Shown here in pieces: positions 13,601 to 46,583 of a DNA stretch of 64,000 nt; the stretch's first letter is position 1; each line of letters begins with the position of its first letter. A model generated the notes under the pieces. That model ran no database searches. It was not told the origin of the DNA and was given only the letters and a program-made list of their open reading frames with translations. Both the position numbers and the translations under genes were made by a program. Origin of the DNA: Malus domestica (Eukaryota; Streptophyta; Magnoliopsida; Rosales; Rosaceae); contig NC_091674.1 of assembly GCF_042453785.1 (NCBI RefSeq), positions 9,044,001-9,108,000 of the forward strand. Reading direction: 5' to 3'.

Positions 13601-16600
13601 CGGCATCTACATGTTAAAAAACAATACTTGAAACCAACATGAAATTAACATATTACGGTTGACTATTACTTGACACAAAACTTGTATGTAATGCGACCTG
13701 CCAACATGGATTATTTTGACATGACATTCTTCTCACTACAATGTAGAAAGAAATGTTCAATTTTTTTTCATTTCTAATACGTATTGTATGAATCCCTGTA
13801 GAAGAACAGATCATTTCTGATTGATTTGTTAGTAGCAAGGCAAACAGATTTACTTATTTACAATGTATTGCTTGGTTTGGTTTAAAATTATAGTAACTTA
13901 GTTTTGTTCTAGTTCTCAACAGTTGATCTCCATTTGGTGATATCAATTTTTTTTTCATACTTCTGTCAATGTTTGTGTTCGCAGACCTGACAACAAGTTT
14001 TATTACCCAGTATACAAAAAATTTCTCATAAGTTCCTTAAAGGAGGTTATGTTTCTCATGTATAGACAGCTGAGTTGCATTGAGAGTAGCCATATATGAT
14101 TTAACAACTGCTAGTGTGACTTCGTTGACGATTTTATTTAAGGACCATATGAGAGAAATAACTGCATATAATGTGTGTAGAACTGCAGACACACACATGT
14201 AGTTATAAGCTATGTATTTTTGAAGATTACTAATTTATATATCTATGTAGGTATACAGCTGCCGGTTACTATTCTTGTCCGTTGAAATTTTTGGTCTTTT
14301 AATTGTTCCTACAAATATAGCTCTGAATGACATGATTATCATTACTTTTTTTGACTTTTTTGTTCTAATTTGATTTACCAGGAAAAGATTCGAGTTGCTC
14401 TTTATGTTCAAAAAGCAGCACTGCAGTTCATTGATGGTATCATCCTTAAATTTAGAGGTCAAGTGAAAATTGATTGTGTGTGTGCTGATCTCTTGTATTG
14501 AATACTCTTTGTCTCTTTGTTTTGTGATGTTGTGAAGCTGTTGATCGTGGAGCTGATGCAAAGCCAGGTCTGCATGAATTCAAGCTGTCAGAAGATGCCA
14601 GAATGGCAGGTTTCAGCATTCACCCAGATGAACTTGCATCTATTACACGTGCCCATGATATTAAGGCCTTGAAAAGCCATGGTGGAATTCATGGGATTTT
14701 AAGGAAAGTCTCTGTCTCGGTAGATGAAGGTGTCAAAGATAGTAATATAGCAATCAGGCAAAATGTTTATGGCTTAAACCGTTACAAGGAGAAACCTCCT
14801 CGAACTTTTTTGGTGTTTGTATGGGAAGCACTACAGGACTTAACATTAATGATCCTTATGGTCTGTGCTGTGGTTTCAATTGGAGTTGGAATTGCCACTG
14901 AAGGCTGGCCCAAAGGCACGTACGATGGTCTGGGAATTTTAATTAGTATAATTTTAGTGGTTACAGTTACCGCCATTAGTGACTACAAGCAGTCTTTGCA
15001 ATTCAAGGATTTGGACAGGGAGAAGAAAAAGATTTCTGTTCAGGTCACTAGGGATGGAAAAAGACAAAAAGTTTCCATTCACGACTTGGTTGTTGGAGAT
15101 ATTGTGCATTTGTCGGTTGGGGATGTAGTTCCAGCTGATGGACTTTTCATATCAGGGTACAGTTTGCTGATTGATGAGTCAAGCTTGTCAGGTGAGAGTG
15201 AGCCGGTGAATATATATGAAGAGAAGCCTTTTCTTCTTTCCGGAACTACAGTGCAGGATGGATCAGGTAAAATGCTAGTGACTGCAGTTGGTATGAGGAC
15301 TGAATGGGGAAAATTGATGGAAACACTGAGCGAAGGAGGAGAAGATGAGACCCCACTGCAGGTGAAGCTTAATGGTGTTGCTACAATTATTGGTAAAATT
15401 GGTTTGACTTTTGCAGTGTTGACATTTTTGGTATTGACGGTAAGATTTTTGGTGACAAAAGGACTTAACAACGAGATCACTGATTGGTCTTCAACTGACG
15501 CCGTAACACTTTTGAACTACTTTGCTATTGCGGTAACTATAATTGTTGTTGCAGTTCCCGAAGGATTACCATTGGCAGTGACGCTGAGTCTTGCTTTTGC
15601 AATGAAAAAATTGATGAATGATAGGGCACTTGTAAGGCATCTCTCAGCATGTGAGACAATGGGTTCTGCTGGTTGTATTTGCACAGATAAAACAGGAACA
15701 TTAACTACAAATCATATGGTAGTTACCAAAGTATGGATATGTGAAAAATCTGTAGATGTTAAAGAAAATGACAGTAAAGAAACATTGACATCAGAAATAT
15801 CTGGAGCATCAAGCATCCTTTTGCAGGTTATATTTCAAAATACAAGTTCTGAGGTTATTAAGGATGATGGAAAGACCTCTATTTTGGGAACACCAACGGA
15901 GTCAGCATTGCTAGAGTTTGGTTTACTTTTAGGTGGCGATTTTGATGCCCTGCGCAGAGAGGTAAGGATTCTTAAGATTGAACCTTTTAATTCTGTCAGG
16001 AAGAAAATGTCTGTTCTTGTAGCTCATCCTCATGGTGGAAAACGAGCGTTTTGCAAAGGTGCATCAGAACTAGTACTGGGAATATGTAACAAGTACATTG
16101 ACTCTAATGGAGAGCCTGTTCATCTCTCCGAAGAAATGGTAAAGAATATCACGAATGTCATAAATACTTTTGCCTGTGAAGCTTTGAGAACTCTCTGCTT
16201 AGCTTTCAAGGATATAGATGACTCTTCCATCGAAAGTGGCATCCCAGATGACGGCTATACATTGGTAGCAGTTGTTGGTATTAAGGATCCTGTGCGCCCG
16301 GGGGTCAAGGAGGCAGTTGAGACTTGTTTAGCTGCTGGAATCACTGTACGTATGGTAACTGGTGATAATATAAATACAGCTAAAGCCATTGCTAAAGAAT
16401 GTGGCATACTCACAGAGGGTGGTATAGCCATAGAAGGACCTGCGTTTCGTAGCATGTCTCTTGAGCAGATGAAAACTGTGATACCGAAGATTCAGGTTAG
16501 TAAACAATTGCATTGAAAATTTTGACCCTCAATATATATCCAAGGATGCTTCAAATTTTCTAAATGTTCCGTGTGGATACAGGTAATGGCCCGGTCTTTA

Positions 16601-18324
16601 CCTTTGGATAAGCACACATTGGTAAAAACTTTGAGGGATGAATTTGGTGAGGTAGTTGCAGTGACTGGTGATGGGACTAATGACGCTCCTGCTTTGAAAG
16701 AGTCAGACATTGGACTTGCTATGGGCATAGCAGGAACAGAGGTTTGTATTCTGCCACATGAGATTTTTTTTCTTCAATTCTGTGATGTTTTGCTTCTAAT
16801 TATTTCTTTTTATGTTACCTCTTATCATTTCCACATCCATTTACATGTAGTTCAGAGAGCTTAGTCTGGACTAAATATACTGATAGTTATTGTGGGTGCG
16901 TGAGCTACTAATAATTAAAAATCTCCAATCTTTCGAAAAATGCTCTTATTTTACCTGTTACTGTATCGTTTTCACTAAATATTAATGGGGTTTTACTGAA
17001 TACTAGAAGTGCATAATATTAACTTCCATTTTGTGTCATTTTGCATCATTTGAGCTTTAGAATTTATGTTCTGTCACATTGCTTGATAATTGAATGTTTT
17101 CAATTCTAAATTATTCATGGATATGTTGCAGGTTGCCAAAGAAAGTGCCGATGTCATCATATTGGATGACAATTTTAAAACTATAGTAAATGTGGCCAGA
17201 TGGGGACGTTCAGTATACATAAACATTCAGAAGTTTGTGCAGTTCCAGTTAACTGTTAACGTTGTTGCTCTAATAATCAATTTTGTTTCTGCATGTGTCT
17301 CAGGTTTGTTGTGCAGCAGATTTTTCTTATATGAAATTCCGTTATATTTGTTTGGAGGTGAACTGACATGAAATAATGACAAATTCCACATCTCTTTCAG
17401 GATCTACTCCCCTTACAGCAGTGCAACTGCTTTGGGTGAACATGATTATGGACACTCTTGGTGCTTTGGCACTGGCAACAGAGCCTCCAAATGATGGACT
17501 TATGAAAAGGCCCCCAGTTGGGAGGGGTACAAGCTTCATCACCAAGGCTATGTGGAGGAATATCATTGGTCAGAGTATCTATCAACTGGCTGTCCTTGGA
17601 GTTCTTGATTTCTCTGGGAAGAAGCTACTAGGACTTACTGGTTCAGATGCAACTGAGGTTCTTAACACTGTGATATTCAACGCATTTGTGTTTTGCCAGG
17701 TACATTTTACTGGTTTGACCAGTACCCTAGTTTTCTCCGTGCATCTTCCACTTGGTTACGTTTAATACTTACCGGCATATAACTTCTAGTTTTGATTTTA
17801 TTATTCCTAATTAATACACACACGCACACACACACAAAATTTTGGTGTCAATGTCAGTTATATTGTGGTTAGGAAATTAAGCAGATGGTATCGGGCCTGT
17901 GTTTGTTATTTCCTGTCGTGTTTGTTTTCTGAGGTTGAACTAATGCTTCTCAAAAGCTTGTAGTAGAAATACTCAAATCCCACATATGTATGATCTTGCT
18001 TTTCTTTTGTTCTAACAGGTGTTTAATCAGATAAACAGTCGTGACATAGAGAGGATAAACATATTCCGTGGAATGTTTGATAGCTGGATATTCCTAGGCG
18101 TCATGGTTTGCACAGTGGTCTTCCAGGCTATCATAGTAGAGTTCTTGGGAGATTTTGCTAGCACTGTACCACTAAGCTGGCAACTATGGGTACTCAGCGT
18201 TTTACTTGGATCTGTTAGCATGCTTGTTGCAGTTGTGCTCAAATTAATACCTGTCGAAAGAACAATTAAGCACCATGACGGATATGAAGCACTTCCTTCT
18301 GGTCCTCCGGAGGGCATAGTATGA
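10604..18324 (+). CDS. ACA4/11: Autoinhibited Ca2+-ATPase, ACA4/ACA11 type (seven exons)
   Basis: P2B-type ATPase that pumps Ca2+ out of the cytosol; ACA4/ACA11 of Arabidopsis are vacuolar or tonoplast pumps. Exons by GT..AG and frame: 10604-10774, 14382-14436, 14538-16495, 16583-16741, 17132-17303, 17401-17699, 18019-18324; every junction keeps frame and gives 1039 aa (Arabidopsis relatives are about 1025-1030). The N-terminus has the basic calmodulin-binding autoinhibitory stretch (RRWRNAV, about residues 21-43). SGES of the actuator domain is at 293-296, PEGLP of M4 at 416-420, the phospho-acceptor DKTGTLT with Asp459, and TGDGTND at 756-762. The C-terminus ends in GPPEGIV after HHDGYE-like residues typical of the ACA4/11 branch. 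The ATG at 10604 is chosen because [11 protein letters not shown] aligns with the family start. Intron 1 is long (3.6 kb) and contains a MITE. All catalytic residues are intact, so it is probably functional. ACA4 and ACA11 cannot be told apart here. Confidence 0.95.
12770..13202. mobile_element. MITE in intron 1 of the Ca2+-ATPase
   Basis: 433-bp element with ends GTTCTAAAA / TTTTAGAAC and subterminal GC-rich runs of the type GCGCCTAGGCG on both sides. It is flanked by AGTCACAAG and AGTGAGAAG, a 9-bp target duplication with two mismatches. There is no coding capacity. The superfamily is uncertain; the 9-bp duplication hints at Mutator-like. Confidence 0.65.
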
Positions 18325-19518
18325 ATAGGGCCGTGTGAAATGCCCTTTTTTCCTTGGAACTTGCTGAGGTTGATGACTTGTACTGCTGAATCTAGCACAA
18401 CGTCTTGGGTTGGTCAAAAGGCCAATTTTTGAAGGTGAAGAACTTAAGACGGTTCGGTGAAATACTCAACAGATCTGATTGGTATTTTGTTTTTGTTTTC
18501 CAAAAGCGAGAAAGGGTTGGTTCAGTCAGCAGATTGGTAGCATCTTTCCTTATACGAGTTCCCCACTCGCGGAGTAATTTGAAGCACATTGTGATGCTTG
18601 AAATGAATCTTCAAAGTCATGTATTGAGAATCTTTGGTTATCTGATTGAACCTCGGTATAGTTGGTTAGAAAGAGAGATTTATGCTGTTCTTAAACATAC
18701 ATCAGCAGTATCTGCATGTCATTTGCCTTGTGATTTGGTATTTCAGTGAAGGTTATAAATTGAAATTGCTGATCTAAGAGAATTATAATTTTGTGAATCT
18801 GTTCTATTTCACTGCGTTAGCTGCTGATTACACCTTTAGATTGGCAAGGCAACAGTTGTTTCACATGCGGTTAAGTTTCACTAGAAAAACAGAAATTATG
18901 TGTTACTTTCTCAACAAAAAGAACATGCCTGGTTCATTTCAAAAACTTATTCTCAACTACTAAAAATAACATTAGGCTCGACTCACAAACATAAATTTTA
19001 ACTAATTGAAAGCTTCAAAAATTCAATGCAGTTATTCAAATCCATAAAAAGAGGGAGTTGAAATGTTTGAAATAACTTTGAAATTTCCAATAGGAAAATT
19101 TTATTGGAACTCAACATTTCTCTTTCTAAACTCAACTTATGATTTTATTTTGAAATTCCTGTTTTACCCCATATACTAAATGAGTTTAGAAAGAAAAAGC
19201 CAAAAGAAATCCCATTAGTGAAAGTACCCCCGATCACCCCATCTCCACCCCTCCACGAAAACATCCTCGACTGCCTAAACCTTTTGTCATTCCTATTGAA
19301 TGATTTAAACTCGTTGAGTTTCAATCTCAAATTGGTTTTATCACAAACTAGTCGAATTTTTGTGAAAATGAAGAATGAAGAACTAGAATTCAGCACACAT
19401 ACTCATTGAACTAGTTTTAATGGTTCAGATTAAACAAATTGGCTTAATTAGATGTTATCTCTTAATTGATTTATCATTATGGTGATGAAGTATTGCTTCT
19501 ATATTATGGTGGATGAGA
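18325..19518. other. 3' UTR and downstream non-coding DNA of the Ca2+-ATPase
   Basis: Non-coding. The first several hundred bases are probably 3' UTR. Most of it has a counterpart at 25525-26840 in unit B, except 18408-18637, which is absent there. No supported ORF on either strand. Confidence 0.6.
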
Positions 19519-21399
19519 TGGAAGGGAAATTATGAGATTTAATTGGGATTTCTAGTGACTAGCATGCATATACAATTCTAAATTTATATACATAAGCAAC
19601 GGAAACATATTATCACATATTATCAAAGTAATAGTCATGCAAATCCCATTCAAGAAGCATAGGTTGCATCAAACAAAATATTGAAGAACAAAGTGAAGGT
19701 TGAGTTTTATACCTCTTGATCTAGACTTTAGACCAATGATGGACCACCTCCAAGCTCCTTGTTCTTGGAACTCCTTAAGTCTAACCTCCCTCCTTGTTTC
19801 CTCTACCTTGATAGATTTGGAACTCATTTGATTCTCCTCTAGTCTCTAAAGTAGAAGACCTCTAAAGATCCACAGCCACTAGTATAGTGAGATGGATGTT
19901 GGAATAACCAAAAGGAGAAGAGATGATTAGCTATATCCCCTCTTGGTGGCCGGCTATGAATGTGTGAAGAGAGAGAGACTTGTTTTTCTCTTGTTGAAAA
20001 GAACACACAAAAAAGCCCTAATGAAACTTTTTCATCTCTTTATAAAGGTAAAAGAAGTCAACTAATTGACTCTTTCTCTCTCTTCTTTCCTCATCTTTGG
20101 CCGGCCCCTTAGTGTAGGTTTGGATTTTGGTTTTTTATCATTTCAAGTCATCCTATGCTTGAATAAAAAATCCAATGGGCCCGAATGAACCCGAACTTTG
20201 TTCTTTAAGCCCGAAACGATCTTTCATCGCTTCTATGATTTCTTTAGACTTTCTAATTAATCATAGCACTTAATTAATCCAATTAATTAATTCAATCATC
20301 CTTTAGTTGTCTCACCACAAGAGTGTATTGGTGTACAATCATTTTAGGTTCTAATTAGTGAGGCAATGAAGTGATTGGTACCAATCCAATTGATTAGTAT
20401 TTATCCAATCATTCAGTGAATTAAAGCTTACTTTTAATTCTTCTTCTTCTTTGAAGACTACTTATTTAATCATCTAGAAGAACCCACAAGCCATGAGTGA
20501 CATCTAACCATATATCATGGCTACCCAAGCTAATGTAGAATTTGGTCAGAGAACCTATTCAGTTGGAATTACAATGTAATTCGATCATTCTCTAATACAA
20601 TACTCACAATCACATTACTAGGATATGGATACTTAATGTCAAACCCCTAATGTGATTATACCAAGTTATATGATTCAATTGAGTAGTATAGGAACGCATT
20701 CCATCATTACGCTTGATACTTCGGCCGAAGATTCCCGAATCATATCTAAGAGTATTCTTCCTCTTATAACGAGGATTAGAGATCCCTTGTTGATCATTCA
20801 CATGCCTCTGAGAATAAATCACTGACCCCAACAATGCATAGAACACATCTAAGATGAGATGTGGTCATGTCTCATTATCAAATGATCAGCAACGTATCCC
20901 CAAGACAACTATGATGTCTCAGGTCAAAGGATTACTTACATTATTCCAACCAGTAGAGTTACTTGCTTGACATGTGAGTAAACCTCCATGCAAGTACTTT
21001 CGTTTGATTGTGTTCAGTGAACTCATTCCCTTAATGAGCACTTACATACTTGTCTTAGTGTCACTACACGAATGACTTGAGACTTTCCATCCTTCCCATT
21101 TGAAGGGGACATAGTATGTACTGGTCTATGTATTATCAGTATCCCTCTGACAATCCTATAACCTGGAACCTTTTGGACATTATGGTTATGTGAAAAAGGT
21201 CTTTGCTGTCTAACATCATTAGATTACTTTTTCCATCAATCCATTGTCCATGGATTCACTATTTTGGATGTATATCATTTTATTGAGGTATTCCTAATGA
21301 GTGACTTTGCCTTTTTGTTGTATTAGAGTTATCTACGCATATAGACATTGTCTTGAAATGTTTCTTCCAAAGATTGACTTTCAGGGCATATCTCCAACA
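19519..21399 (-). mobile_element. Solo LTR, Copia (Angela/Tork-like) type
   Basis: 1881-bp insertion present in unit A and absent from unit B, which has the uninterrupted target GGATGAGATTTGG. It is flanked by a perfect 5-bp duplication TGAGA (19514-19518, 21400-21404). On the minus strand it starts TGTTGGAGATATGCCC, like Angela-type Copia LTRs, and ends CCTTCCA, giving TG..CA ends. There is no internal coding region and no second LTR, so it is a solo LTR left by recombination. Confidence 0.85.
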
Positions 21400-21485
21400 T
21401 GAGATTTGGATATTTGATTGTGGGTGGTAAGGGAGGTGCAAGTGGCGTGGCTGGGTGGTTGGTAAGGGGTGATGAACATTCAGTT

Positions 21486-22430
21486 CTCGTTTGGCAGCCA
21501 GTATAAAGGATCAGATAGGATAAGTAATACATTCCCGAGTGTTTGGTGTGATTATGTACTAAATAGTACTAGTATAATTTATTTGGTCTCATATTTTTAG
21601 TCCAATTCACACCCGTTTATTTATCCATTCTAAAGGCTCGGTATAATTAGTCGGGCCAATGATACGCTCTCTTTACCTTCCTTCGTGTCTCTCGTTATCT
21701 CTATTTCCTTCTCCAGTTTGTCTTCTGCGCATCAGAAACGCAAACAATCAGCTACCCACCTTACCTCGCAGGTGACTGCGAGAGTACCATCCTCTATCTT
21801 TCTCCATCAGCCTAACCCCGACTTCTCCCATCCTGAGATCTACTCTCTCAAACTCTTCACACATCGACGTCGGCTATGAATCAAACCCATTCTTCCTCAT
21901 CTCTCTAACTGTGTTCTTTATCATCTACCATTCATGGTGTTCTTGTTAACCCATCAGCAACAATCCGACAAGAGATGTGGGTAAAAGGATTTCCTCTTTT
22001 CAGATCTGCTTTGAGTTTTGAGTTTCAATTCTTGGTAAAGATTGAGCAATTGTAATTTTTGGTTGTATTTGAGTGGAGGTTGATGAGTTGGGTTTGGATT
22101 TGGCTGGGTGAAAAGCAAAGGTGCTGCGAGGAAGATGAAGAATTTTTGGCTTTTCTATGTGAGAAGTAAAGGTCTAGGCAAATCTAGAAGTATCATGACA
22201 AAGTTTTTGTTTTGGGTGAAATTAATGAAAGTTGAGGCACCCAAATTTCTATCTAAAATTAGTTTTATAATTACAGTATGATGATCGGTACAATATCAAA
22301 CTTAGTACTAAATAGTCAATGTTTTAATCCGGTAGAGTACCAAACATCTAACTAATTTAGTCAGTACTATTCGGTGACTAATTATCTTATCCGATGGAAA
22401 TAGTCACTACAATCCGAGTTGCCAAATGAG
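21486..22430. mobile_element. Non-autonomous TIR element in unit A
   Basis: 945-bp insertion relative to unit B. Ends are CTCGTTTGGCA and, inverted, CTCATTTGGCA, followed by a similar GGATAAG motif inside each end. A clear target duplication is not visible. The only open frame inside (64 codons, 21685-21879) has no recognisable domain. The superfamily is undetermined. Confidence 0.6.
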
Positions 22431-23037
22431 GATGTCTTTTTGTATGGAAAGGTAGGGGTGGATGTTAGACGTGACTTTGGCTGGGTTTCTATTTCTTTCT
22501 CTTCTTTTTCTTTCCAAACCCATTTTGTATGTGTGATAAAATAGAGATTTCAAAGTAAAAGACTTATAAGTTTGGTTTAGAAAGAATTTTTTTGGGTCTG
22601 AATCAAATTTCACTTTCCGAAATAATCTTGAAGGGGAGGGGAATTGAAATGTTCAAAACAACCTTGAAAATAAGTAATGTGTAAGCCACATAACTTATTT
22701 TGAATGGAAACTTAATGAAGTAACAGTGAGATGACAAATTAATGATTTAGAAAAAATAAAATGACAAATTACTTAAAATTGTAGTTTAGATGACAAATTG
22801 AAAAGAATTACAAAAGTTTGTATGACATTTAAAAAAAAATTCCGAGTCTAATCAGTAGTTTGGGCTATGAATCAAGTTGGGAAGACTAGTGCTACATTCC
22901 TTCAAGCCTAATCACAGCATGGCAATGCAGCTATATGAATTCGACAACGCCCACTGCAGGATATGCCCAAATGAAATTGGACACAAAAAGCCCCTATGGT
23001 GACATTATTTAAACATGGCTCAAATTTTAAATAGATT

Positions 23038-23165
23038 ATTTAGTTGTATTCTTCTTCACTTATAAGTGAGATATTTGAGATTTGAATTTCGTTAATGACG
23101 AGTTTAATATCGACTTATTCCCCACTTTTAATGTAAATGTATTTTTATCAAAAAAAATAAAATAA
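23038..23165 (+). repeat. SINE-like copy with A-rich tail
   Basis: Shares the core ATTCTTCTTCACTTATAAGTGAG with other copies in the window and ends in an A-rich tail (TCAAAAAAAATAAAATAAAA). Unit B has only a shortened match near 27460. Degenerate. Confidence 0.45.
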
Positions 23166-23204
23166 AATAAAAACTATTTTTTCACAAGGGCGTTGTGTGA
23201 AGTG

Positions 23205-23373
23205 AATAAGTATCCCGGGGATCTTTCAATCACATCCGTTCATCGTATATCATGCGGTAAAAAATCATTGTAATTTTTTAATTTAAAATGAAATATAAAC
23301 AGTACATAACGAAAACTAGCCGCACGATGTATGATGAACGAATGTGATTGAAGGATCCCTGAGATCCTCGTTC
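23205..23373. repeat. Hairpin MITE
   Basis: Inverted arms around GGGATCTTTCAATCACATCC and its inverted partner near 23335-23370 with an AT-rich centre. A related sequence lies at 39985-40200. Confidence 0.5.
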
Positions 23374-23461
23374 ATGTGAAGTGGATTTAACTAATTGATG
23401 GTCAAGACCATAAGACTTTTGTAGGTTGGGTTCATAAAAACAGTTTTATTACTAACATTAT

Positions 23462-23635
23462 TTATTGCCACTCAGTACTATGGTTTGGTGATATTTCTTT
23501 TCACTTGTAAGTGAAAGGTCTTAAGCTCGAATCTCGTGGATGATGAAGTCGTTACTGGATTAGGTTACCCATTGTGTGGCTTAGCCAAACTCCCCTTTTA
23601 TTTAATATAACATATATCATTATACTAACAAAAAA
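23462..23635 (+). repeat. SINE copy
   Basis: tRNA-like core with a B-box-like AAGCTCGAATCTC and a 10-A tail. Same family as the copies at 31493, 47728 and 54967. Confidence 0.5.
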
Positions 23636-23883
23636 AAAATATCTTTAGCATATCCTAATTCCACATCAATTTTTATCTTCTTTTAAATTGATCTTGAGCA
23701 TAAAACATAAGAACTATTACTTATAGGTGGAGAAAAATACACCATAATGCTAGGGACAGACTTATAAATTATGCATCACCATCCTTCACCAACCTACATA
23801 CAATTCAATTGGACAGGCGGCCTTCTTATTAGGTACCTATTTATGGATCACCCCCACAAAATATTAATTGGCACTATTTAATT

Positions 23884-24038
23884 AGGGTAGTGTTATTCAC
23901 ATTCACTTGAATTTTTTACTTCTCACACCCTCTTGTTAAACTTTGTTCATTGATCTTCTTCAATTCATTCTTTCCGACGGTCGAAAATTAAGAGTGAGTA
24001 TGAGAGGTAAAATTGAGTGTGTGGATAACACCACCCTT
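23884..24038. repeat. Short hairpin MITE
   Basis: Ends AGGGTAGTGTTATTCACA and, inverted, AAGGGTGGTGTTATCCACA. A sister copy lies at 35250-35392. Non-coding. Confidence 0.55.
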
Positions 24039-25218
24039 TAGTTATTTAACTATGACCAAATAAATTGACAAATAAAGTATTATGTGCATGTACTGTAGGA
24101 CATCCCTAGTGGAGAAATACACATTCGAGATTATAAAACCACATTTACATCTCGTTTTGCATTTCTGAAAGATTTGATGTGAATACTACTATAATGGAGG
24201 AAATGTAAATTTGATATTTCATTTACTTCTCTCTATAACTCACAGGCCACACCTTCAAAAGATGTAGATGTATATTTACATTTTTATTTTCATTTCTAAC
24301 GAAAATAAATACTTCTTTAAATCTTTCCATTGGCCTGCTTCCGGCCAACTAAAACTATAAAATGTCCATTTCAAAGCATTTTGCATTGAAGAAGATCTTA
24401 TGATAACCAAATGCTCTTAATAATCTTAAATAGAGATTTAAACCCTTATTTTTTGTCAAAGAGATTTATAACTTAGGCAGTCCTAAGCATGAGCCCCAAC
24501 AATACCACACTTCGGAGTGGCCATGCGATCCTTCCACTCTCAAAAGGGGATCCCTCTCAACAAGGGAATACATTAATACCATCATGCAAGTTTTAGGCAC
24601 AAAATAATATCCCCAACAATCATATTTGCAACTGTAATACGATCATGTGGTATTATCAGTTGACTAAAAAAAGAGCATTTTTAATAATACTGCATGTGAG
24701 ATGAAAAATTAAAAATAATCATTTGACTCGTATCTGCGTCAGCTTATATATCCCATGTCAGATTTAATTATTTTTTATGAATTTATTATATTTTTGGTTT
24801 GCCTATATTACCCTTAGGTACAATTGTTTTAACGTTTTGGCATTATTTACTACTCACTTCTCAAATTTATCTGTTACAATACAGGTTTCTCCATTCGGGC
24901 ATTAATGAAGTTTTTTCATTAACTGGTGATTAGCTCATACTAATCTTTTTGTCGTTCGGGTTTTAAATCCCAATTCCAACCAATCCATCCATTCTGAGGT
25001 AAGTTATGCAAAATTGTAAAAATGTCAGTTCTTTATTAGGTCCGTGTTATATGCGGCTTAGATTGTGGTTAGAAAATTAAGCAGTTGGTATTAGGCCCGT
25101 GTTTCTTATTTCCCCTCGTGTCATTTTTCTGAGATCGAGCTAATGCTTCTCAAAAGCTTGTAGTAGAAATACTCAAATCCCACATACGTATGATCTTGCT
25201 TTTCTTTTGTTCTAACAG

Positions 25219-25524
25219 GTGTTTAATCAGGTAAACAGTCGTGACATAGAGAAGATAAACATATTCTGCGGAATGTTTGACAGCTGGATATTCCTAGGCG
25301 TCATGGTTTGCACAGCGGCTTTCCAGGTTATCATAGTAGAGTTCTTGGGAGCGTTTGCTAGTACTGTTCCACTAAGCTGGCAACTATGGTTACTCAGCAT
25401 TTTACTTGGATCAGTTAGCATGCTTGTTGCAGTTGTGCTCAAATTAATACCTGTCGAAGGGACAATTAAGCGCCATGACGGATATGAAGCACTTCCTTCT
25501 GGTCCTCCAGAGGGCATAGTTTGA
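25219..25524 (+). pseudogene. Duplicate terminal exon of the Ca2+-ATPase (exon 7')
   Basis: A full-length copy of exon 7: 101 codons plus stop, no indel and no premature stop, about 21 base and 11 amino-acid differences. The acceptor and the 18 bases before it (TTTTGTTCTAACAG) are identical to those of exon 7. No copy of exons 1-6 precedes it, so alone it is a fragment. Because the gene's exon 6 lies upstream on the same strand, it could serve as an alternative last exon. At several family-conserved positions it keeps the Arabidopsis-like residue where exon 7 does not: EKIN, QVIIVEF, LGAFAS and WLLSI. It differs elsewhere (Cys in NIFCG, CTAAF). Its ATA to GTA change creates a donor-like CAG/GTAAAC at 25231. 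Whether it is used is unknown. Confidence 0.8.
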
Positions 25525-28500
25525 ATAGGACCGTGTCAAACGCCCTTTTTTCCTTGGAACTTCCTGAGGTGGACGACTTGTAGTGCTGAATCTAGCACAA
25601 CGTCTTGAGGTTGCGTCTTCGGTTATCTGATTGAACGTCGGTGTAGTTGGTTAGAAAGAGAAATTTATGCTGTTCTTAAACATACATCAGTAATATCTGC
25701 ATATATATCATTTGCGTTGTGATTTTGTATTTCAGTGAAGATTATAAATTGAAATTGTGTTCATCTAAGAGAATTGATTGTGTTGGTATAATTTTGTGAA
25801 TCTGTTCGATTTCACTGCGTTAGCTGCTGATTGTCTACTTTTTGATTGGCAAAATTTGTTTCAGATGCAGTGGAGTTATGAAGTTTCACTAGAAAAAACT
25901 GAAATTGTGTGTATTTTCTCTACAAAACTTAAATTATTGGTTTGTGTATTGAAAAGGTTAGGGAATTAATTCTCCCACTCTCATTTTTCTTCCCTTCACA
26001 CTTTGTTGATTTCTAGCATTTAAATTGGATAACTTAGAGAAAAGTGTGAGACACAAATAAACGAGGGTGTGCAGAATCATTTCCTAAATTATTATTCAAA
26101 AATGCTTTTGTTGATGTAATAACGGAATATCCTTTTCGAAAAAGAAAAAAAAGTATAACGGAATCTCTTTGGACTTTACACATATGAAATGTCGTATGAA
26201 CTTATTCATTTTTTTTAATTGTCATGTGAATTAAAAATTTTGGCTAGTACAAACCGAAACTTCTGGCTGGTAAAAAGAACATGCGTAGTTCTTTTCAAAA
26301 AACTTATTGTCAACTACTAAAAATGCCATTAGGCTCACAAACATGAATTTTAACTAATCGCAAGATTTGAGAATTCAACAGTGTCATTCATGTCCCTAAA
26401 GAGAGAGAGTTGAGATGTCTGAAATAACTTTGAACTTTTCAAAAGAAAATTTTTATTTGAACCCAACATTTCTCTTTCTAAACACAACTTATAATACTTT
26501 TTATTTTGAAATCCCTGTTTTACCCCATATACTAAATGAGTTTAGAAAGAAATGGCCGAAAAAATCCCATTAGTGAAAGTATCTCTAATTACCTCATCCC
26601 CCCTCCACGAAAACACCCTCGACCGCCTAAACCTTTTGTCATTCCTATTGAATGATTTAAACTCATTGAGTTTCAACCTCAAATTGGTTTATCACAAAAT
26701 AGTTGAATTTTGTGAAAAGGAAGAATGAAGAATTAGGATTCTGCACACATACTCATTGAACTAGTTTTAATGGTTATTAGATGATATCTCTTAATTGATT
26801 TATCATTATGGTGCTGAAGTATTGCCTCTATATTATAGTGGATGAGATTTGGGTTTGTGAGTGGTGGGGAGGTGCGAGTGGCGTGGCTGGGTTGTTGGTA
26901 AGGGGGTGAAGAACATTGGACGTTTTGGGTTTGGAGAGGTAGGGGTGGTGTGGGATGACTTTGGCTGGGTTTCTTTTTCGTTTTCTTCTTTTTCATTCTA
27001 AACCCATTTTCTATGGAAGTAAAACAAAGATTTCAAAGTAAAAAAGTTACAAGTTTGGTTTAGAAAGAAAATTTTGGGTCCAAATTAAATTTCACTTTCC
27101 AAAATAATCTTGAAGGGGATATGAATTGAAATGTCCAAAATAACCTTGAAAATAAGTCATGTGCAAAGTAATGTCATATGACTTATTTTGGATGAAAAAC
27201 TTAATGGAGTTATAGTGAAATAACAAATTAATGATTTAGAAAAATTGATATACCAAATCTCGTGAATTGTAGTTCATATGACAAACTGAAGAAAATATAT
27301 AACTTCATATGACATTTTTAAAATTTTCCCTAGTCTAATTAGTAGTTTGGGCTTTGAATCAAGTTGGGAAGGATATCCCTAAATGAAATTGGACACGTAA
27401 GCTCCTATTGTGACATTTATTTAACATGACTTGAATTTTAAATAACTTATTTAACGGTATTCTTCTTCACTTATAAATGAAAAAAAGATAAAGACACTTA
27501 GACAATATTTTCAGGTCTTATTTTTTTACTGTGTGAATGTGAAATGTAAAAAACTATATTTACATCTCATTTTGCGTTTCCGAGAGAAGTGAATGTGGAT
27601 TCTACTCTAATGGAGGAAATGTAAATTTGATATCTCATTATTTTTCTCTGTATAACTCAAGGAGCTCACCTTCTAAGAGCAACTCCACCCCCACTAAGGT
27701 AATTACTGCTTGGGCTATTAAGCAAATACAATTACTGTTTTAGTGAACAGTAACTGCTCTAGTGCATCTCCACCCTTAAAAAGTAGTAGGATTCTTTCCC
27801 CTCACATTCTCTCCCTTTCTCTCTTACTTTCGTCTTTGACTCTCTTTGTGTGTAAAGAAGTCAACACAAAATGTTGATGTGGTTTAATTATGATCATTCA
27901 AATAGGAGGAGAGGAAATAGGAGGGGAATTTAGACTACCTACGTTAGAGAGGAGAGAATCCTACTCTTGTAAAAATAAAAAAAAATAAAAAAAAGATGTT
28001 TATTTTACATTTTTATTTACATTTCTAATGAGAATAAATATTTTACATCTTTTCATTTGAACAACTTCCGGCCAACCAAAACTATAAAATGTCCATGTAA
28101 AAGCATTTTGCGTTGAAGATGCTCTTAATGATAACGAAATGCTCTTAATGATCTTAGATAGAGATGTAAACCTTTATTGTTTGTCAATGAGATTTATAAC
28201 TTAGGCGGTCCTAAGCATGAACCCCCACACTACCACATTTCGAAGTGGCCCCAACAATGTAATCCTATGCACTACGACATTTCGGAGTGGCCCCAACAAT
28301 GTGATCCTTCCACTCTTTTTAAAAGGGGTCCCAAACAATAGGCTTGGCAATTCCTGACACGACCTGATAACCCGACACGACCTGACATGAAATTAATAAG
28401 TGTTCGGGTCGACACGATAACGAATCGAATCATTATCGGGTAACTCAATAAGCACCTGTTAAGATAACGAGTTGGTTCGGGTTTACACATGGGTAACACG

Positions 28501-28560
28501 ATACACGATAAGCAAAATATTAATTTTATAATTTTATAACACTAAAAAAATACTATAATA

Positions 28561-28582
28561 ATTATATATATATATATATATA
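28561..28582. repeat. (TA)n microsatellite
   Basis: Simple TA repeat at the left margin of the satellite; a second run is at 28690-28709. Confidence 0.9.
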
Positions 28583-28719
28583 TTAAATTAAATATTAAAA
28601 ATTGGTGACCATTGGATCGGCTTAAAAATACATACCATTCAATTTCTTAAGTGTTATATGTACAAAATAAATACATTTAAATCTACATAATATATATATA
28701 TATATATATACTATTGAAC

Positions 28720-30755
28720 TTGATGGGATACGAATTTTATGAAACTAATTTCAATGATCCAACCGTCAAACTTATTTGTATATGCTTCGAGATTGCATCA
28801 GCAAAAAATCGCAAAAAACCGCAAAAAACAAACATTCAGAGATCAAGTAACGGGACAAACTTTTCGACGGTTATCAACGAAAAATCACTATTTAACGGTT
28901 ATTTTAACTCTGATTTTGATGATTTTTTATAGCTACACTCATTGACCCTATATGAATACAATGAATTAACTCGATCTTCAATTTAAAATATTTACATTAG
29001 TGGATACCACAAAATCTTATGTTATACTTAATGAAAGTTTGAATAAACTCTCAAGTGTTAGTTCATCTATTGTTTAGATGAGATACGCATTATACGAAAC
29101 TAGTTTCAACGATCCAACCGTCAAACATGTTTGTATATACTTTGAGATTGCATACGCCAAAAATTGGAAAAAATAAATATTCAGAGATCAAGTAACAGGA
29201 CAAAACTTTTCGACGGTTATCAACGGAAAATCATAATTTAACGGTTATTTTAACTCTGATTTTGATGATTTTTTACAGCTATACTCATTGACCTTATATG
29301 AATACAATGAATGAACTCGATCTTCAATTTAAAATATATACATTGGTGGATACCACAAAATCTTATGTTATACTTAATGAAAGTTTGAATAAACTCTCAA
29401 GTGTTAGTTCATCTATTGTTTAGATGTGATACGCATTATACGAAACTAGTTTCAACGATCCAACCGTCAAACATGTTTGTATATACTTTGAGATCGCATA
29501 CACCAAAAATTGCAAAAAATCAATATTCAGAGATCAAGTAACAGGACAAAACTTTTCGACGGTTATCAACGGAAAATCACAATTTAACGGTTATTTTAAC
29601 TCTGATTTTGATGATTTTTTACAGCTATACTCCTTGACCTTATATGAATACAATAAATGAATTCGATCTTCAATTTAAAATATTAACACTAGTGGATACC
29701 ACAAAATCTTATGTTATACTTAATGAAAGTATAAATAAACTTCAAGTGTTAGTGAATCTATTGTTTTGATGGGAAACGCATTCTACAAAACTAGTTTCAA
29801 CGATCCAACCGTCAAACATGTTTGTATATACTTCGAGATCGCATACGACAAAATTTGCAGAAAACAAACATTTAGAAATCAAGTAATGGGACAAAACTTT
29901 TCGATGGTTATCAACGAAAAATCACTATTTAACGGTTATTTTAACTCCGATTTTGATGATTTTTTTATAGTTACACTCCTTGACCCTATATGAATACAAT
30001 GAATGAACTCGAGCTTCAATTTAAAATATTTATACTAGTAAATACCACAAAATCTTATGTTATACTTAATGAAAGTATGAATAAACTCGTAAGTGTTAGT
30101 GAATCTATTGTTTTGATGGGAAACGCATTCTACGAAACTAGTTTTAATGATCTAACCGTCAAATATGTTTGTATATACTTCGAGATCGCATACGCCAAAA
30201 ATTGCAAAAAACAAACATTCAGAGATCAAGTAACGGGACAAAACTTTTTGACGGTTATCAACGAAAAATCACAATTTAACGGTTATTTTAACTTCGATTT
30301 TGATGATTTTTTTACAGCTACACTTCTTGATCCTATATGAATACAACGAATGAATTCGATCTTCAATTTAAAATATTTACACTAGTGAATACCATAAAAT
30401 CTTATGTTATACTTAATGAAAGTATAAATAAACTCAAGTGTTAGTGAATCTATCGTTTTGATGGGATACGCATTCTACGAAACTAATTTCAACGATCCAA
30501 TTGTCAAATTTGTTTGTATATGCTTCAAGATCGTATATGTAAAAAATCGCAAAAACAAACATTCATAGATCAAGTACCGGGACAAAACTTTTCTACAGCT
30601 ATCAACTAAATATCATGATTTAACGATTATTTTAACTCCGGTTTTGATGATTTTTTTTACAGCTACACTCTTTGACCCTATATGAATACAATGAATGAAT
30701 TCGATCTTCAATTTAAAATATTTACATTATTGGATACCACAAAATCTTATGTCAT
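28720..30755 (+). repeat. Tandem satellite, about six units of 343-358 bp
   Basis: Units begin with GATGGGATACGC or a close variant at 28720, 29078, 29425, 29768, 30115 and 30459. Each holds GATCCAACCGTCAAAC, CGGGACAAAAC, TTTAACGGTTATTTTAAC and CTTATGTTATACTTAATGAAAG in the same order. Units 2 and 3 are nearly identical, as are 4 and 5, while 1 and 6 are more divergent, as expected of homogenisation by unequal exchange. A frame of about 70 codons stays open in several units, but the period is not a multiple of three and the product has no known domain. Confidence 0.9.
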
Positions 30756-31081
30756 GATGATTGATGAAAATTAAGGATTTTGTAAAAGGAATAACATGCA
30801 AGCTTTGAGTTCCATTGGTAAGGTTTAAACTTTTGAGAAAGACTTCACAACATTGAAAACAAAAGCTCTTTCATTTTGCATGTCCTTACATATTTAATAT
30901 TTTGTAATAGATTAGTAGTGTATGGATGTTTGTTTATTAGGCTCTTATTTTCGAGTGTGGATGTAGTACTTAAACGACAACTGTGTTTTAATGTTTTGAA
31001 GTAATATTTATGTGGCAATGTGTGGTATGTGCAAATTTAAGAAAACAAAATATTTTTCTTAATGGGTCGGGTCACTTTACC

Positions 31082-31370
31082 TGTCACATCCCGGCTCAAG
31101 GTGGACCACTTCCCGGGCCTGCTTCACCACCGTAGCACGATATTGTCTGCTTTGGGTCCCGTCCACGCCCTCACGGTTTTGTTTTTGGGAACTCACGAGC
31201 AACATCCCAGTGGGTCACCCATCATGGGAGTGCCCTAACCCCCTTCTCGCTTAACTTTGGAGTTCCAACGGAACCCAAAGCCAGTGAGCTCCCAAAAGGT
31301 CTCGTGCTGCTAGGTAGGGATGAAAAAATACATTTAAGGATCACTCCCTTGGGCGATGTGGGATGTCACA
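31082..31370 (-). mobile_element. Cassandra TRIM solo LTR with 5S-rRNA-like core
   Basis: 289 bp with perfect 5-bp duplication TTACC (31077-31081, 31371-31375). On the minus strand it starts TGTGACATCCCACATCG and ends GGGATGTGACA. The middle, read on the minus strand, carries 5S rRNA motifs: AACTCCAAAGTTAAGCG, then GATGGGTGACCCACTGGGA. This combination defines Cassandra retrotransposons, whose LTRs embed a 5S promoter region. There is no second LTR, so it is solo. It is nested in the hAT-like element. Confidence 0.9.
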
Positions 31371-31492
31371 TTACCCGTTGGATAAAGTGACCCGACCTGT
31401 TAAGGACCCGTTAAGATAACGAGTGTGACACGACACGACCCGTTTGCCAGGCTTACCTCTCAACAAGGGAAAACATTAATACCATCATCCAA

Positions 31493-31662
31493 TTTTTTTT
31501 TTTTAACAAATGATATTATCTACACTAAGGGAAAAGGGATGAGCTTAGCTTCACAATGAGTTAGCAATAATGTGGTTTAAATTTGTTTTCGGTGAAAATC
31601 GAGCCGAAGACCTCTCACTTACGAGTGAAGAAGAATATCACTAGACTGTAGTACTAAGTGAC
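31493..31662 (-). repeat. SINE
   Basis: 170-bp insertion in unit B, absent from unit A. Flanked by ACCATCATCCAA (31481-31492) and ACCATTATCCAA (31663-31674). It has a T-run at its left end, meaning a poly-A tail on the minus strand. On that strand GGCTCGATTTTCACC resembles a B box. Confidence 0.8.
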
Positions 31663-31717
31663 ACCATTATCCAAGTTTTAAGCACAAACTAATATTCCCA
31701 ACATTCATCTGTGCAAC

Positions 31718-31930
31718 CACAACAAATGGTCCAGTAGTAAGGGTCCAAACTGCGGCTCCCTAATAAACAAAAAAAATGTAGGAGGTCTCGGGTTTGATGT
31801 TCCCAGCTGGTGAGTCTGCTTAACTGTGGCCATGAGCAGGGTGAAATTCCCTATAGCCTCTCTGAGCCTGGAAGGGGTGGATAATTGTGATTTGCCACTA
31901 GTTGTCCCTTTTAATAAAAAAACAACAAAA
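31718..31930 (+). repeat. SINE of a second family
   Basis: 213 bp flanked by 17-bp duplications, ACATTCATCTGTGCAAC and ACATTCATTTGTGCAAC. It has a B-box-like CTCGGGTTTGATGTTCCC and an A-rich tail. Unit A has a single copy of the target. A 5'-truncated relative lies at 55335-55445. Confidence 0.8.
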
Positions 31931-32149
31931 ACATTCATTTGTGCAACTGTGACACAGTCATGTAGTATTATCAGTTGACTTTATATTACAACAGGTGTAT
32001 ACAAACTCTATTTTAATCCCTAAAAAAATCACTTTTTTAATAATATTGTATGTAAGATGAAAAACTAAAAATAGTCATTTGACTTGTATCCACGTCAACT
32101 TATATATTCCAAGTCAAATTTGATTTTGATTTTTTTTTTTATGAATTTA

Positions 32150-33258
32150 GGGTAAATTACACAGTAGCCCCTCAGGTTTTGAGATTTATTACAACCCCAT
32201 ACAACAACTTTAAAACATTTCACTTTCATACCTCAAGTACTATTTTATTTCAATATAATACATCCGTTAGATTTTCCATCCATTAATCCGTTAAATGTTG
32301 ACGTGGCTGCCACATTTGTGCCACATGGCTACCAAATATCTGCCATGTGGCAAAAAAAAATAATTTTTTCATTTTTTTAAAAAAACCTGAATTTTCTCAA
32401 CCAAAAAAAAAAAAAAAATGAAACCCACATCTGCAACCAGTGATCAAAAGGAGGAAAAGAAGGAGAAGAAGGAGGAAAAGAAAGAAAAAAAAAAATTTTG
32501 TCCCTCCCCCAACGACCAGAAGAAGAAGAAGAAGAAGAAGAAGAAGAAGAAAGAAGAAGAACCCCCTCCCGTCCCCCCCTCGTGCCCAGCGACCCTCCCC
32601 CCACCCCAACCCAGCTCCCTTCCTCCCTCTTTTTCTTCTTCTTCTTCTTGCAGATCTGGGTTTTTTTTTTTTTTTTTTTTTATTTTCTTCCTCCGACGAC
32701 CCTCCTCCTGTCCCCCCCGGGGCCCAGCGACCCTCCCCCCACCTCGACCCAGCTCCCTTCCTCCCTCTTCTTCTTCTTCTTCTTCTTGTAGATCTGGGTT
32801 TCTATTTTTTTTTCTTCCTCCGACGACCTTCCTCCCGTCTCCCCCCCCCCTCCCGCGCCCAGCGACCCTCCCCCCACCCCGATCTCTTCTTCCTCTTCTT
32901 CTTCTTCCTCTTCCTCTTCTTCTTGCAGTGGGTTTCTATTTTTTTTTCTTTTTCTTTCTTCCTCCCTCCTCTTCTTCTTCTTGCAGATGTGGGTTTCAAA
33001 TTTTTTTTTGTTGAGAAAATTCAGGTTTTTTAAAAAAATTTAAAAATTATTTTATTTGCCATGTGGCAGACATTTGGCAGCCACGTGACATATATGTGGC
33101 AGCCATGTCAGCATTTAACATATCAATTGATGGAAAATGTAACAGATGTATTATTTTGAAATAAAATAGTACTTAATGTATGAAAGTGAAATGTTTTAAA
33201 GATGTTGTAAGGAATTGAAATAGACCCTAAACCTGAGGTATGAAAATGTAATTTACCC
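32150..33258. mobile_element. Mutator-like (MULE) non-autonomous element
   Basis: 1109 bp with inverted repeats of about 200 bp starting GGGTAAATTACA. It is flanked by a perfect 9-bp duplication ATGAATTTA (32141-32149, 33259-33267); unit A has one uninterrupted ATGAATTTATTATAT. The interior has three to four imperfect copies of a unit of about 130 bp built from TTC/CCT runs, CCAGCGACCCTCC and GCAGATCTGGG. Open frames there are low-complexity and not genes. Confidence 0.85.
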
Positions 33259-33514
33259 ATGAATTTATTATATGTTTAGTTTGCCTATATACCCTTAGGT
33301 ACAATTATTTTAATGTTTCGACATTATTTACTATTCACTTCTCAAATTTATCGGTTACAATACAAGTTTCTCCATTCCGGCATTAATGAAGTTTTTTCAT
33401 TAACTGGCGATTAGTTCATACAATCTTTTTGTCCTTCGGGTCTTCAGTAAACCAATCCATCCATTCTGAGGTAAGTTATGCAAAATTGTAAAAATAATAA
33501 TTCTTTATTAGGGA

Positions 33515-34126
33515 TGGACGCACACCTTAATATCGTTTTGGCCATTTCCAAATATTGGCAGGCCTGATATTGATGGAGCTGAAGAAATTGGAGTTGAAGA
33601 GATTGCTGTGGAACCGCTATTGGCCGAAAAACAATCTAGGAGGCCAAAGTCTAAGAGGATGAAATCACTTGGCCAACAATCAAGGCCGATAACATTTGGA
33701 AGGTGTCATCGACTTGGTCGGCATAATTCCCTCACATGTGAAATCCAAATTTGAGAGTTTATATTTTTAATTCATCTTGGCGCTAACATATATATATATT
33801 TTTTTAAGTAATCTTAGAACTAGTTTGAGATTGTTTAATTTTTTTTTAAAAGAAGCTTTTTAAAAAGTTGGGCCATAAATTGTGTTCAATAAATAAAATA
33901 AAAAGTCCTTTTTTTTTTCTTTTAAAATTATGGGTCAAAATAGCAGAAAGCAAAAGCAGGTTTACCCCGATTTAGTTTTCAATGAAATGGTGTTTCATTT
34001 TGGTCATCTAAACCTATTGAACTGTACCTACAAAAGTATATTATCAACTCGTACCAAATTTATCGGACCTAAACTACATAACGTATTTAATAGAAATCAT
34101 AGTCTAATTGATTGTACGAAACTAAC
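33515..34126. other. Intergenic, with the MULE fragment only
   Basis: AT-rich. Apart from the transposase-tail remnant at 33563-33754 I see no gene or bounded element. Confidence 0.5.
33563..33754 (+). pseudogene. C-terminal fragment of a MULE-type transposase
   Basis: An in-frame 63-codon stretch ending at TGA. Two RRPKSKR-type basic runs precede a degenerate zinc-knuckle-like tail (GRCHRLGRHNSLTC). Such a tail follows the SWIM finger in plant Mutator-like transposases. The preceding GGCAG could be an acceptor site. No upstream transposase core is found, so this is a remnant. Assignment rests on the tail motif only. Confidence 0.4.
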
Positions 34127-34770
34127 TGTAGATATCGAAATTTCAGTGAAATAAATGTTGACCAATGCATTAAAATTACAACCTTTATTCATTTCACCTA
34201 CAACCTCCACTCATTTCACCAACATCATACACTCACTTCACCTACAACATCCACTTACTTCACCAAAAAAATGGATGGTGATTCATTCTCAAAGCTTATA
34301 AATAGGCTTCTCCATCAAGGGATAGAAAACGAGGAGAGATCACACTAAAACCTTGAAGCTTTGAAACTCTAAAGCTCTAAAGCTCTAAAGCAAATCCTGA
34401 AGGATCAAGAAAGCCTTCTTCGTTCTTCGTCAAATCCTCCTTCAAGATCAAGCCCTAACGGCCCTTAAGGAACTTCCACCAAATCCTCCTTCAAGATCAA
34501 GCCCCAATGACCATTGAAGAACTTTCACCAATTCAAAGTCAAGCCCCAACGGCTCCTTGAAGAAAGTGTTCATCGTTCATCACATGTTCATCATAAGATC
34601 AAGCCTCAAAGGCCCTGGGATCAACATCACAATGCATAAATTTACACATTACGAAGATCGAATCAGAGGCTAAGTTTGTAGAGGAGATTGTAACCCTTAA
34701 ATCATTAATACAAATATTATTTTGTACACGTGTTCTTGTCTCATTCATTGCAGGAATTTCTGTGTTTACA
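34127..34770 (+). mobile_element. Solo LTR (Gypsy-like)
   Basis: 644 bp with ends TGTAGATATCG and GTGTTTACA and a perfect 5-bp duplication CTAAC (34122-34126, 34771-34775). A TATA box (CTTATAAATAGG) is at about 34298, followed by short AAGATCAAGCCC-type direct repeats. A TTCATTGCAG-like sequence is near the end. No internal region. Confidence 0.8.
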
Positions 34771-35036
34771 CTAACATACCTAATTGAATACATACTCAAT
34801 TGAAATTAGAGCCTAATTGATTGTACAATACTAACATACTTAATTGAAATTAGAGCCTAATTTACCGTATTAAAACTGGCGGACCTAAACTAATACAGGA
34901 TACCTAATTGTTATTTACAACACATAACCAAACGTATTGAATCAACCGAGCCTAACCGACCGTGCCAAAAAGTCAAAAGAGTGCTTCACCAACATATATT
35001 ATGATGCTGAAAGTGAAAGGTGCCTGGAGATCTCAA

Positions 35037-35230
35037 GAATGGAATTGCATCCTCTCCTAGATCAAGATTCTCCTGATCCAATAACACGGGATTTTGATCC
35101 AACGGTTACAAAGGGGGTCTCTTTGAAAGTTATAATAATTGTAGTTGTTGGATCAAAATCTAATGGCTCGTGTTAGTGGGTCAGGAAGATCCTAATCTCC
35201 TGCTCATGAGAGGATCCAATTCCCTCAAAA
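35037..35230. repeat. Hairpin MITE
   Basis: Inverted arms GGAATTGCATCCTCTC and, from the right, GGGAATTGGATCCTCTC. Arms continue into TTTTGATCCAAC and its partner. The 79-codon frame at 34937-35176 is formed by this hairpin and is not a gene. Confidence 0.65.
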
Positions 35231-35249
35231 ATGATTATTATTATTTATA

Positions 35250-35392
35250 GGTGTGCTATTTACACGCATTTTTTATTTCATACCAATCTTCTTAATTTTT
35301 GGTCGTCGGATCGACTGAATTAAAGAAGATCAAAAGATAAAATTAACAAGAGACGAGTGAGAAGTAAAAATGAATGTATAGAAAACACACCC
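35250..35392. repeat. Short hairpin MITE
   Basis: Ends GGTGTGCTATTTACACGC and, inverted, GGGTGTGTTTTCTATACA. Same family as 23884-24038. Confidence 0.6.
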
Positions 35393-35399
35393 TATTATT

Positions 35400-36349
35400 T
35401 AATAAGAGGATTACTCAGGGAACGAAAATATGAAAATTATTTTTAGGAATTAATCAACTGAAAAGAGAAAAAAAAAGAATTTTCCAGAAACTGCGAAAAT
35501 TTGTAAAAGAAAAAGGGAAAGTTGATTAAGGTACAATCACATAATTGAGTTCCCGCTTTTACGTTCGCATGTTTTGAATTATGGGTGATAATAAATTTAT
35601 CTTTACGTTTTTTACATTTTGATGATAGAGGTTACATTGTAGAAAATAAAGATGACATTTCTTATTAATAGTGATAAAATATCTGGTATTGTTACAAATG
35701 ATATGTCATAGTGTATTAAAATAAAGAATTTTTCTAGATATGGAAAACCGTTCAGGTTATATTTTAAACATAATCTTATTTACATCCTGATATCTAAAAG
35801 TCCCTTATTAATATTACATCTAACACCAACTGATATTATAACACGTGAATTAGTAACACTATAATAAACATGTGAATTAGCAACGTCGTACCATAATTTG
35901 TATCAACCTTTTAAAGCTCTCTTCCACGATCCTTCAAGCAAAATATAAACGGGAAAATAAATATCGTTTAGTCATTTAATTATAACAAAAACGTAAGGTG
36001 AAAAATAAGTAAAGGGGGAAGGTAGACATTTCTCGTTTATCAAATTTCACATCGACTGTCACCGAGAAGTTTGTATAAAAATGCAAATCTTGCAAAGCAC
36101 TTTCCACAGCACGGTTAACCTGATTTCATCAAACCTCAAATAAACTTCACTTTCAGTCGACAATATCTGGACTAAACCAGTAATAACCACCGCGGTTCGA
36201 AGAGTTTTACTTCGAACGAACCGGATAGACCGGAAATACATTGGTTCTATGAATAATTAGGATAGATTCTGGTACAAAGAAGTTGCTTGAATACATAATA
36301 ATACACCACCACAGTGGATTCTCTTTCTTTCTCTAATACAACACCACAA

Positions 36350-36394
<45 letters not shown>

Positions 36395-36490
36395 CCCTAA
36401 AACAATAACAATATTCACTAAGAATCTATGCGCACATAATCTCACTAACTACTTGAGCCTTCAAAGACGAAGAATTTGGTAAATGCCAAG
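35400..36490. other. Intergenic and 3' flank of the transporter gene
   Basis: AT-rich with no supported gene. It contains a CT microsatellite at 36354-36391. The part next to 36497 should include the transporter 3' UTR. Confidence 0.5.
36354..36391. repeat. (CT)n microsatellite
   Basis: Uninterrupted CT repeat of about 18 units just downstream of the transporter stop codon. Confidence 0.95.
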
Positions 36491-36496
36491 GATCAC

Positions 36497-46218: not shown

Positions 46219-46583
46219 CGACGTAACAAAATGACCAAGAACTGAAAAGGGTCGTTAGGGTTTGGCTAGAAAGGGATGAGTTTGAACGAATTGACAGAGA
46301 TCTGAAGAGGGGTTTTAGGGTTTTGGAACCCTTTTCCTTCTCTGTCTGAGCGCCAGAGAGAGAGCTCTTGGGCTTCAAGCTTATTTAGTTCCCAACGGTA
46401 ACTAGAGAATGAATGCGGATTCGGGTCAAATATCTAATTGACCCGTTAAAGGTGGCTTTTTGATGCATACAATTATTATGTAATTAATATGTAATTTACC
46501 AAAAAGGATTTGGTATTACATTTATTTTCCAAAATAAAGAATAATTACTTAACAATTTAACTAAAAAATATAGGGATAATATT
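46219..46583. other. Upstream region of the B3 gene
   Basis: Probable leader and promoter of the B3 gene. A longer frame runs through it in another register but has no support. No TATA box can be called with confidence. Confidence 0.4.

Follow-up and report, generated by a model that had tools for sequence, protein, structure and literature searches.

A P-type Ca2+ pump gene of apple (Malus domestica) is followed by a second, fully open copy of its terminal exon, here called exon 7', which we tentatively regard as the orphaned 3' fragment of an old tandem segmental duplication, one that the pump messenger would not normally include today. The gene is located in a window of 64,000 nucleotides (contig 14:9044001-9108000), to which all positions refer unless another contig is named. 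Found at 10604-18324 on the plus strand, it consists of seven exons that are all open and bordered by GT and AG, and its product is a P-type Ca2+ pump of 1039 residues.

10604-10774, 14382-14436, 14538-16495, 16583-16741, 17132-17303 and 17401-17699, plus strand: exons 1-6 of the Ca2+ pump gene, all open
18019-18324, plus strand: exon 7, the in-place terminal exon, matching the second half of the Pfam family Cation_ATPase_C with 42 bits
25219-25524, plus strand: exon 7', the open duplicate of the terminal exon, matching Cation_ATPase_C with 39.3 bits

In a Pfam scan that covered exons 3, 6, 7 and 7', all four match cation-ATPase families above the curated cut-offs, which places the gene among the P-type cation ATPases. 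Both terminal exons resemble the plant Ca2+-ATPase (ACA) family, aligning with residues 950-1028 of Arabidopsis ACA8 (8qmp), which among solved structures is the closest match of exon 7. We take the N terminus of the pump to be closer to ACA4/ACA11, and exon 7 to encode, by its presumed topology, membrane helices nine and ten, the loop leading into helix nine, and the tail.

The initial annotation had proposed a second open terminal exon with the same stop position and an identical acceptor, about 7% diverged and 7.2 kb downstream, and our comparison bears this out. Both exons are 306 nt long and align without gaps in the same frame and with the same stop position, their starts are 7200 bases apart, they differ at 21 of 306 bases (6.9%) and, as had been counted before, at 11 of 101 residues, and the final 31 intron bases including the acceptor are identical. 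The suggestion that exon 6 is compatible with either copy also holds, with exons 1-6 summing to 2814 bases and exon 6 ending on a codon. Likewise, no second copy of exons 1-6 was detected when the window was compared to itself for matches above 80 bases, a cut-off that the 55-base exon 2 alone would escape. The stretch preceding the acceptor is similarly well preserved.

25139-25218, plus strand: the 80 intron bases before exon 7', with 2 differences from 17939-18018 versus 12 in 64 bases in the stretch just upstream (P 0.0013)

On the branch leading to exon 7, these last 80 bases before the acceptor have accumulated 0 changes, and short gene conversion could explain the low change on both branches.

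The duplication itself is larger than the exon. Where the initial annotation described a repeated exon between 17866 and 33514, the doubling of exon 7 stands, but what is repeated in tandem is a segment of about 7.2 kb that begins in intron 6; we place the bounds of the repeat at about 17845 and about 33512, that is, about 21 and 2 bases away.

17845-25040, plus strand: unit 1 of the duplicated segment, running from within intron 6 across exon 7 into its 3' flank and transposon-like repeats
25044-33512, plus strand: unit 2, in the order of unit 1 and with its own insertions
19520-21398, no strand assigned: insertion of 1.9 kb found only in unit 1, a gap between aligned blocks, located within the intron that would have to be removed to join exons 6 and 7'
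26185-27331, no strand assigned: transposon-like repeats nested within one another in the 3' flank, alignable in part to unit 1 and present in many genome copies

The units form a direct, head-to-tail repeat that continues past the exon in the same order, which characterizes a tandem segmental duplication. Aligned blocks pair 17858-18412 with 25058-25613 and continue from 18631, 18916, 21399, 22442, 22958, 24132, 24266 and 24664 to a final block at 24777-25040, with the counterparts in unit 2 reaching 33512, and the main blocks differ by 6.9-17.2%. Homology back to about 17845 and 25044, which takes in the leftmost 13 bases of the repeat, was judged by eye, as was the breakpoint at 25040/25044, where no clear microhomology was seen. 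The private insertions of unit 2 include a satellite-like tandem array at 28720-30755, with six copies of a unit of about 346 bases (spacing 345-355). The region 25620-28250 has at least 98 genome matches, the window's own counted in, and since transposon-like repeats lie behind exon 7 in both units, they predate the duplication. Further downstream, an inverted repeat of about 400 bases with about 78% identity (32141-33268) encloses open frames, of which the single one scanned, at 32391-33011, has no Pfam match.

Related copies were identified in a search of the 651-Mb genome of 19 contigs, of which contig 12 is presumably the homoeologue of contig 14. For exon 7, five matches were found: two lie on contig 14, and of the three on contig 12 one is partial. 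Above 90% identity, exon 3 has one match on contig 14 and two on contig 12; the remainder of its 21 matches reach at most 74%, the best of them being on contigs 7 and 2, and the search found no remnant of this large exon from a second full gene on contig 14. The copies on contig 12 are a full gene (c12_1), a gene with open exons 1-6 and a cut exon 7 (c12_2), and an orphan group of exons 5-7 (c12_3). The exons 1-6 of c12_2 contain no stop and one in-frame gap of 15 bases, and their omega of 0.73 is not different from 1. Like exon 7', c12_2 and c12_3 are open-frame pieces of one pump gene, but c12_3 keeps exons 5-7 and is closer to c12_1, from which its exon 7 differs at 1 of 306 bases, than exon 7' is to exon 7. 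In c12_2 (contig 12:9405608-9411031), exon 7 ends after about 130 bases and is followed by unlike sequence; c12_3 (contig 12:9495943-9497076) differs from c12_1 at 14 of 261 bases of intron 6.

The surroundings of c12_1 reveal how the two contigs diverge behind the pump gene, where the counterpart of window position 36116 begins 43 bases after the 3' flank of exon 7.

36116-39386, minus strand: stretch with a triose-phosphate-transporter-like gene, whose contig 12 counterpart directly follows exon 7

Within the 17.3 kb at 18819-36115, the second copy of exon 7 with its flank is the only part that matches the compared 70 kb of contig 12 (9385001-9425000 and 9485001-9515000) over at least 100 bases. 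The spacing of 43 bases at c12_1 thus indicates that 18819-36115 either represents additional sequence on contig 14 or was deleted from contig 12.

In a tree of codons 1-80 built from six sequences (exon 7, exon 7', c12_1, c12_3 and the paralogues on contigs 7 and 2, with the truncated c12_2 left out), exons 7 and 7' group together with an ultrafast bootstrap of 88, and at codon 27 they have a two-base change from ATC to GGC in common. Both observations place the duplication after the split between contigs 12 and 14 and reject the opposite order. The silent divergence of 0.151 between exons 7 and 7' points to an old event. Toward c12_1, the silent divergence of the two exons is 0.236 and 0.216, whereas exons 1-6 put this split at just 0.125, and the short exon is thus a noisy estimator.

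The initial annotation had called a frame this clean after about 7% divergence somewhat surprising, which our simulations contradict, as 74% of neutral runs with 9 changes, in which indels were not counted, stay open. We have therefore dropped openness of the frame as evidence of function. The argument is weakened further by c12_2, whose frame is open despite its missing parts, and a clean frame is thus not rare in the family.

More informative is the number and kind of changes. With c12_1 as outgroup, the branch from the inferred ancestor carries 4 amino-acid changes and 5 silent ones for exon 7', and 7 amino-acid changes and 6 silent ones for exon 7, where one silent site with three states is counted on both branches. 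Residues A33, A34 and I61 are found in exon 7' and c12_1, whereas exon 7 and the paralogues on contigs 7 and 2 have V at these positions, a pattern that had suggested the rejected older date for the duplication. This match to distant paralogues renders the direction of three of the seven changes in exon 7 less secure, and once these sites are set aside, the amino-acid changes number 4 in either exon. These counts support the view that exon 7' has not decayed faster than exon 7. The difference in relative rate (12 private sites in exon 7 and 8 in exon 7') is not significant (P 0.50).

The 9 changes in exon 7' compare to 15-23 expected under external clocks, which were derived from near flanks, silent sites and far blocks and provided four neutral settings including a rerun with indels; the far-block clocks stem from repeat-rich sequence and may run fast. 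Depending on the clock, the probability that exon 7' has at most 4 amino-acid changes is 0.0155, 0.0005 (0.0003 in the indel rerun) or 0.0008. Exon 7' also contains no indel, versus 2.2-2.9 expected in the three settings with indels, the near-flank rate being based on 10 gap openings in 532 bases (9 or 10 depending on the alignment). In a joint test at 9 changes, requiring an open frame, at most 4 replacements and a fit to relatives that is no worse, P is 0.010 for exon 7' and 0.0011 for exon 7. Between the two exons, Ka is 0.051 and Ks 0.151 (P 0.012, from rounded counts), with both branches contributing. A codon model of three sequences assigns an omega of 0.32 to exon 7' and of 0.50 to exon 7 and does not reject an omega of 1, as 2 x delta lnL is 2.3 for exon 7' (P about 0.13, calculated by hand), 1.2 for exon 7 and 3.8 for both, and the test of exon against intron on the branch of exon 7' yields a P of 0.068. 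Together, these comparisons offer moderate evidence for past constraint on exon 7', but none that it is in use at present.

At the protein level, exon 7' fits relatives slightly less well than exon 7, save against 9gsd. The match to ACA8 (8qmp) scores 65.8 bits for exon 7 and 64.3 for exon 7', the match to 6a69 37.3 and 34.8 bits, and the BLOSUM score to relatives is 487 for exon 7, 482 for exon 7' and 489 for the inferred ancestor; with 9gsd, exon 7' scores higher (31.1 versus 29.4 bits). The four amino-acid changes of exon 7' comprise one from I to V, one at a site that varies among relatives and two in the tail, and its cysteine at residue 17 is found in none of the relatives compared.

In the history that we tentatively favour, the segment of about 7.2 kb, with its left end in intron 6, was doubled head to tail after the contig 12/14 split, and exon 7' would have been kept protein-like by selection during much of its lifetime. 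The simplest source of this selection would be a second, more complete gene copy that ended in exon 7' and whose exons 1-6 were later deleted, although early use of exon 7' as an alternative exon could have had the same effect. Such an orphaned fragment is consistent with the direct-repeat anatomy extending past the exon, with the contig 12 loci, which directly display extra gene copies without parts, and with changes as few as 4 amino-acid and 5 silent ones, for which P ranges from 0.0003 to 0.0155 under the four neutral clocks. Its weak points are the missing 5' remnant of a second copy on contig 14, in the window self-comparison as in the exon 3 search, and the modest outcome of the internal tests for constraint, namely the codon model and the comparison of exon and intron. 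A one-step duplication breaking in intron 6 would moreover be simpler, and lasting constraint would then come from use; a relic and a partial duplication leave the same anatomy in one genome. The same shortage of changes, together with the lack of indels and the P of 0.010 in the joint test, renders it unlikely that exon 7' was plain debris from the outset, as a non-functional partial duplicate that is open by chance. Such an origin would agree with the 74% of neutral runs that stay open, with an omega of 1 that is unrejected for either exon or both, with a flank rich in repeats and insertions and with other incomplete copies of the pump gene that are also open. An assembly artefact, in which two haplotypes were placed in tandem, has nothing in its favour and is highly improbable in light of main blocks that differ far more than expected for haplotypes and of private insertions in each unit.

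Doubtful, although less so than plain debris, is the current use of exon 7' as an alternative last exon, where the exon 6 donor (after 17699) would be joined to 25219 in some transcripts with their own 3' ends, resulting in a pump that differs at 11 residues. Exon 7' has preserved its frame, stop and acceptor, the intron bases before the acceptor have changed little, it has 4 amino-acid changes where exon 7 has 7, these include the one from I to V, the one at a variable site and the two in the tail, and its match to ACA8 is about equal. The same 80 intron bases are, however, quiet on the branch of exon 7 too, as short gene conversion could explain, the codon model does not reject neutrality of exon 7', its scores against Pfam, ACA8, 6a69 and BLOSUM are slightly below those of exon 7, and the cysteine at residue 17 is unmatched among relatives. 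Joining exon 6 to exon 7' would in addition involve an intron of 7,519 bases holding the complete exon 7, with the same acceptor, and the 1.9-kb insertion, so that the nearer exon 7 should win by default. Use of exon 7' would require transcription past the 3' end of exon 7 and skipping of an identical acceptor. A scan with seven six-base words of the poly(A) type gave raw counts of 3 in the 600 bases after the stop of exon 7 and of 2, one of them AATAAA, after that of exon 7'. The retrieved titles and abstract openings on apple Ca2+-ATPases, the apple genome duplication and duplicated or terminal plant exons contain nothing on the locus. Slightly more doubtful is the extended proposal that exon 7', possibly nearer to the ancestral protein, forms with exon 7 a pair of alternative last exons and has been kept since after the contig 12/14 split, by which a partial duplication would have led to a two-isoform gene. 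An orphaned fragment with past constraint or plain debris are together likelier than an alternative exon.

Homologous alternative 3'-terminal exons are a kind already known, with human capping protein beta as an example in a passage of PMC3228551. As in that gene, the two apple exons are terminal, similar in length, frame and sequence, on one strand and with their own stops, exon 7' lying downstream with an acceptor and phase that fit exon 6. According to the same passage, the exons of capping protein beta are treated as expressed alternatives with their own poly(A) sites (PMC3228551), whereas exon 7' is a candidate alternative exon, and at the apple locus the copy arrived with a segment of about 7 kb. 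Strict mutually exclusive exons are described there as an internal cluster with further exons on both sides (PMC3228551), whereas exons 7 and 7' both carry a stop codon and, if used, would belong with the homologous alternative 3'-terminal exons. A passage of PMC3266260 names tandem exon duplication as a general source of mutually exclusive splicing and FLM/MAF1 as a plant gene with mutually exclusive exons. There, too, one or the other of two exons is included, but the exons of FLM/MAF1 are internal and have translatome reads, that passage does not state an origin of the pair by duplication (PMC3266260), and the choice between the terminal exons 7 and 7' would rest on poly(A) use in addition to splicing.

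If exon 7' were used, the locus would show for a plant that a large segmental duplication can create an alternative last exon, and a tree could have two variants of a single Ca2+ pump without needing another gene, variants that would differ modestly in the last membrane helices and the tail. If it is not used, it illustrates how long an orphaned terminal exon can remain open, which bears on the handling of such exons by gene finders. Elsewhere in the window, open frames on the minus strand at 42218-42814 and 44998-46254 contain a NAM-associated domain and an At2g31720-like B3 domain, and an 84-base tandem repeat with copies that are about 98% identical is located at 50310-50567.
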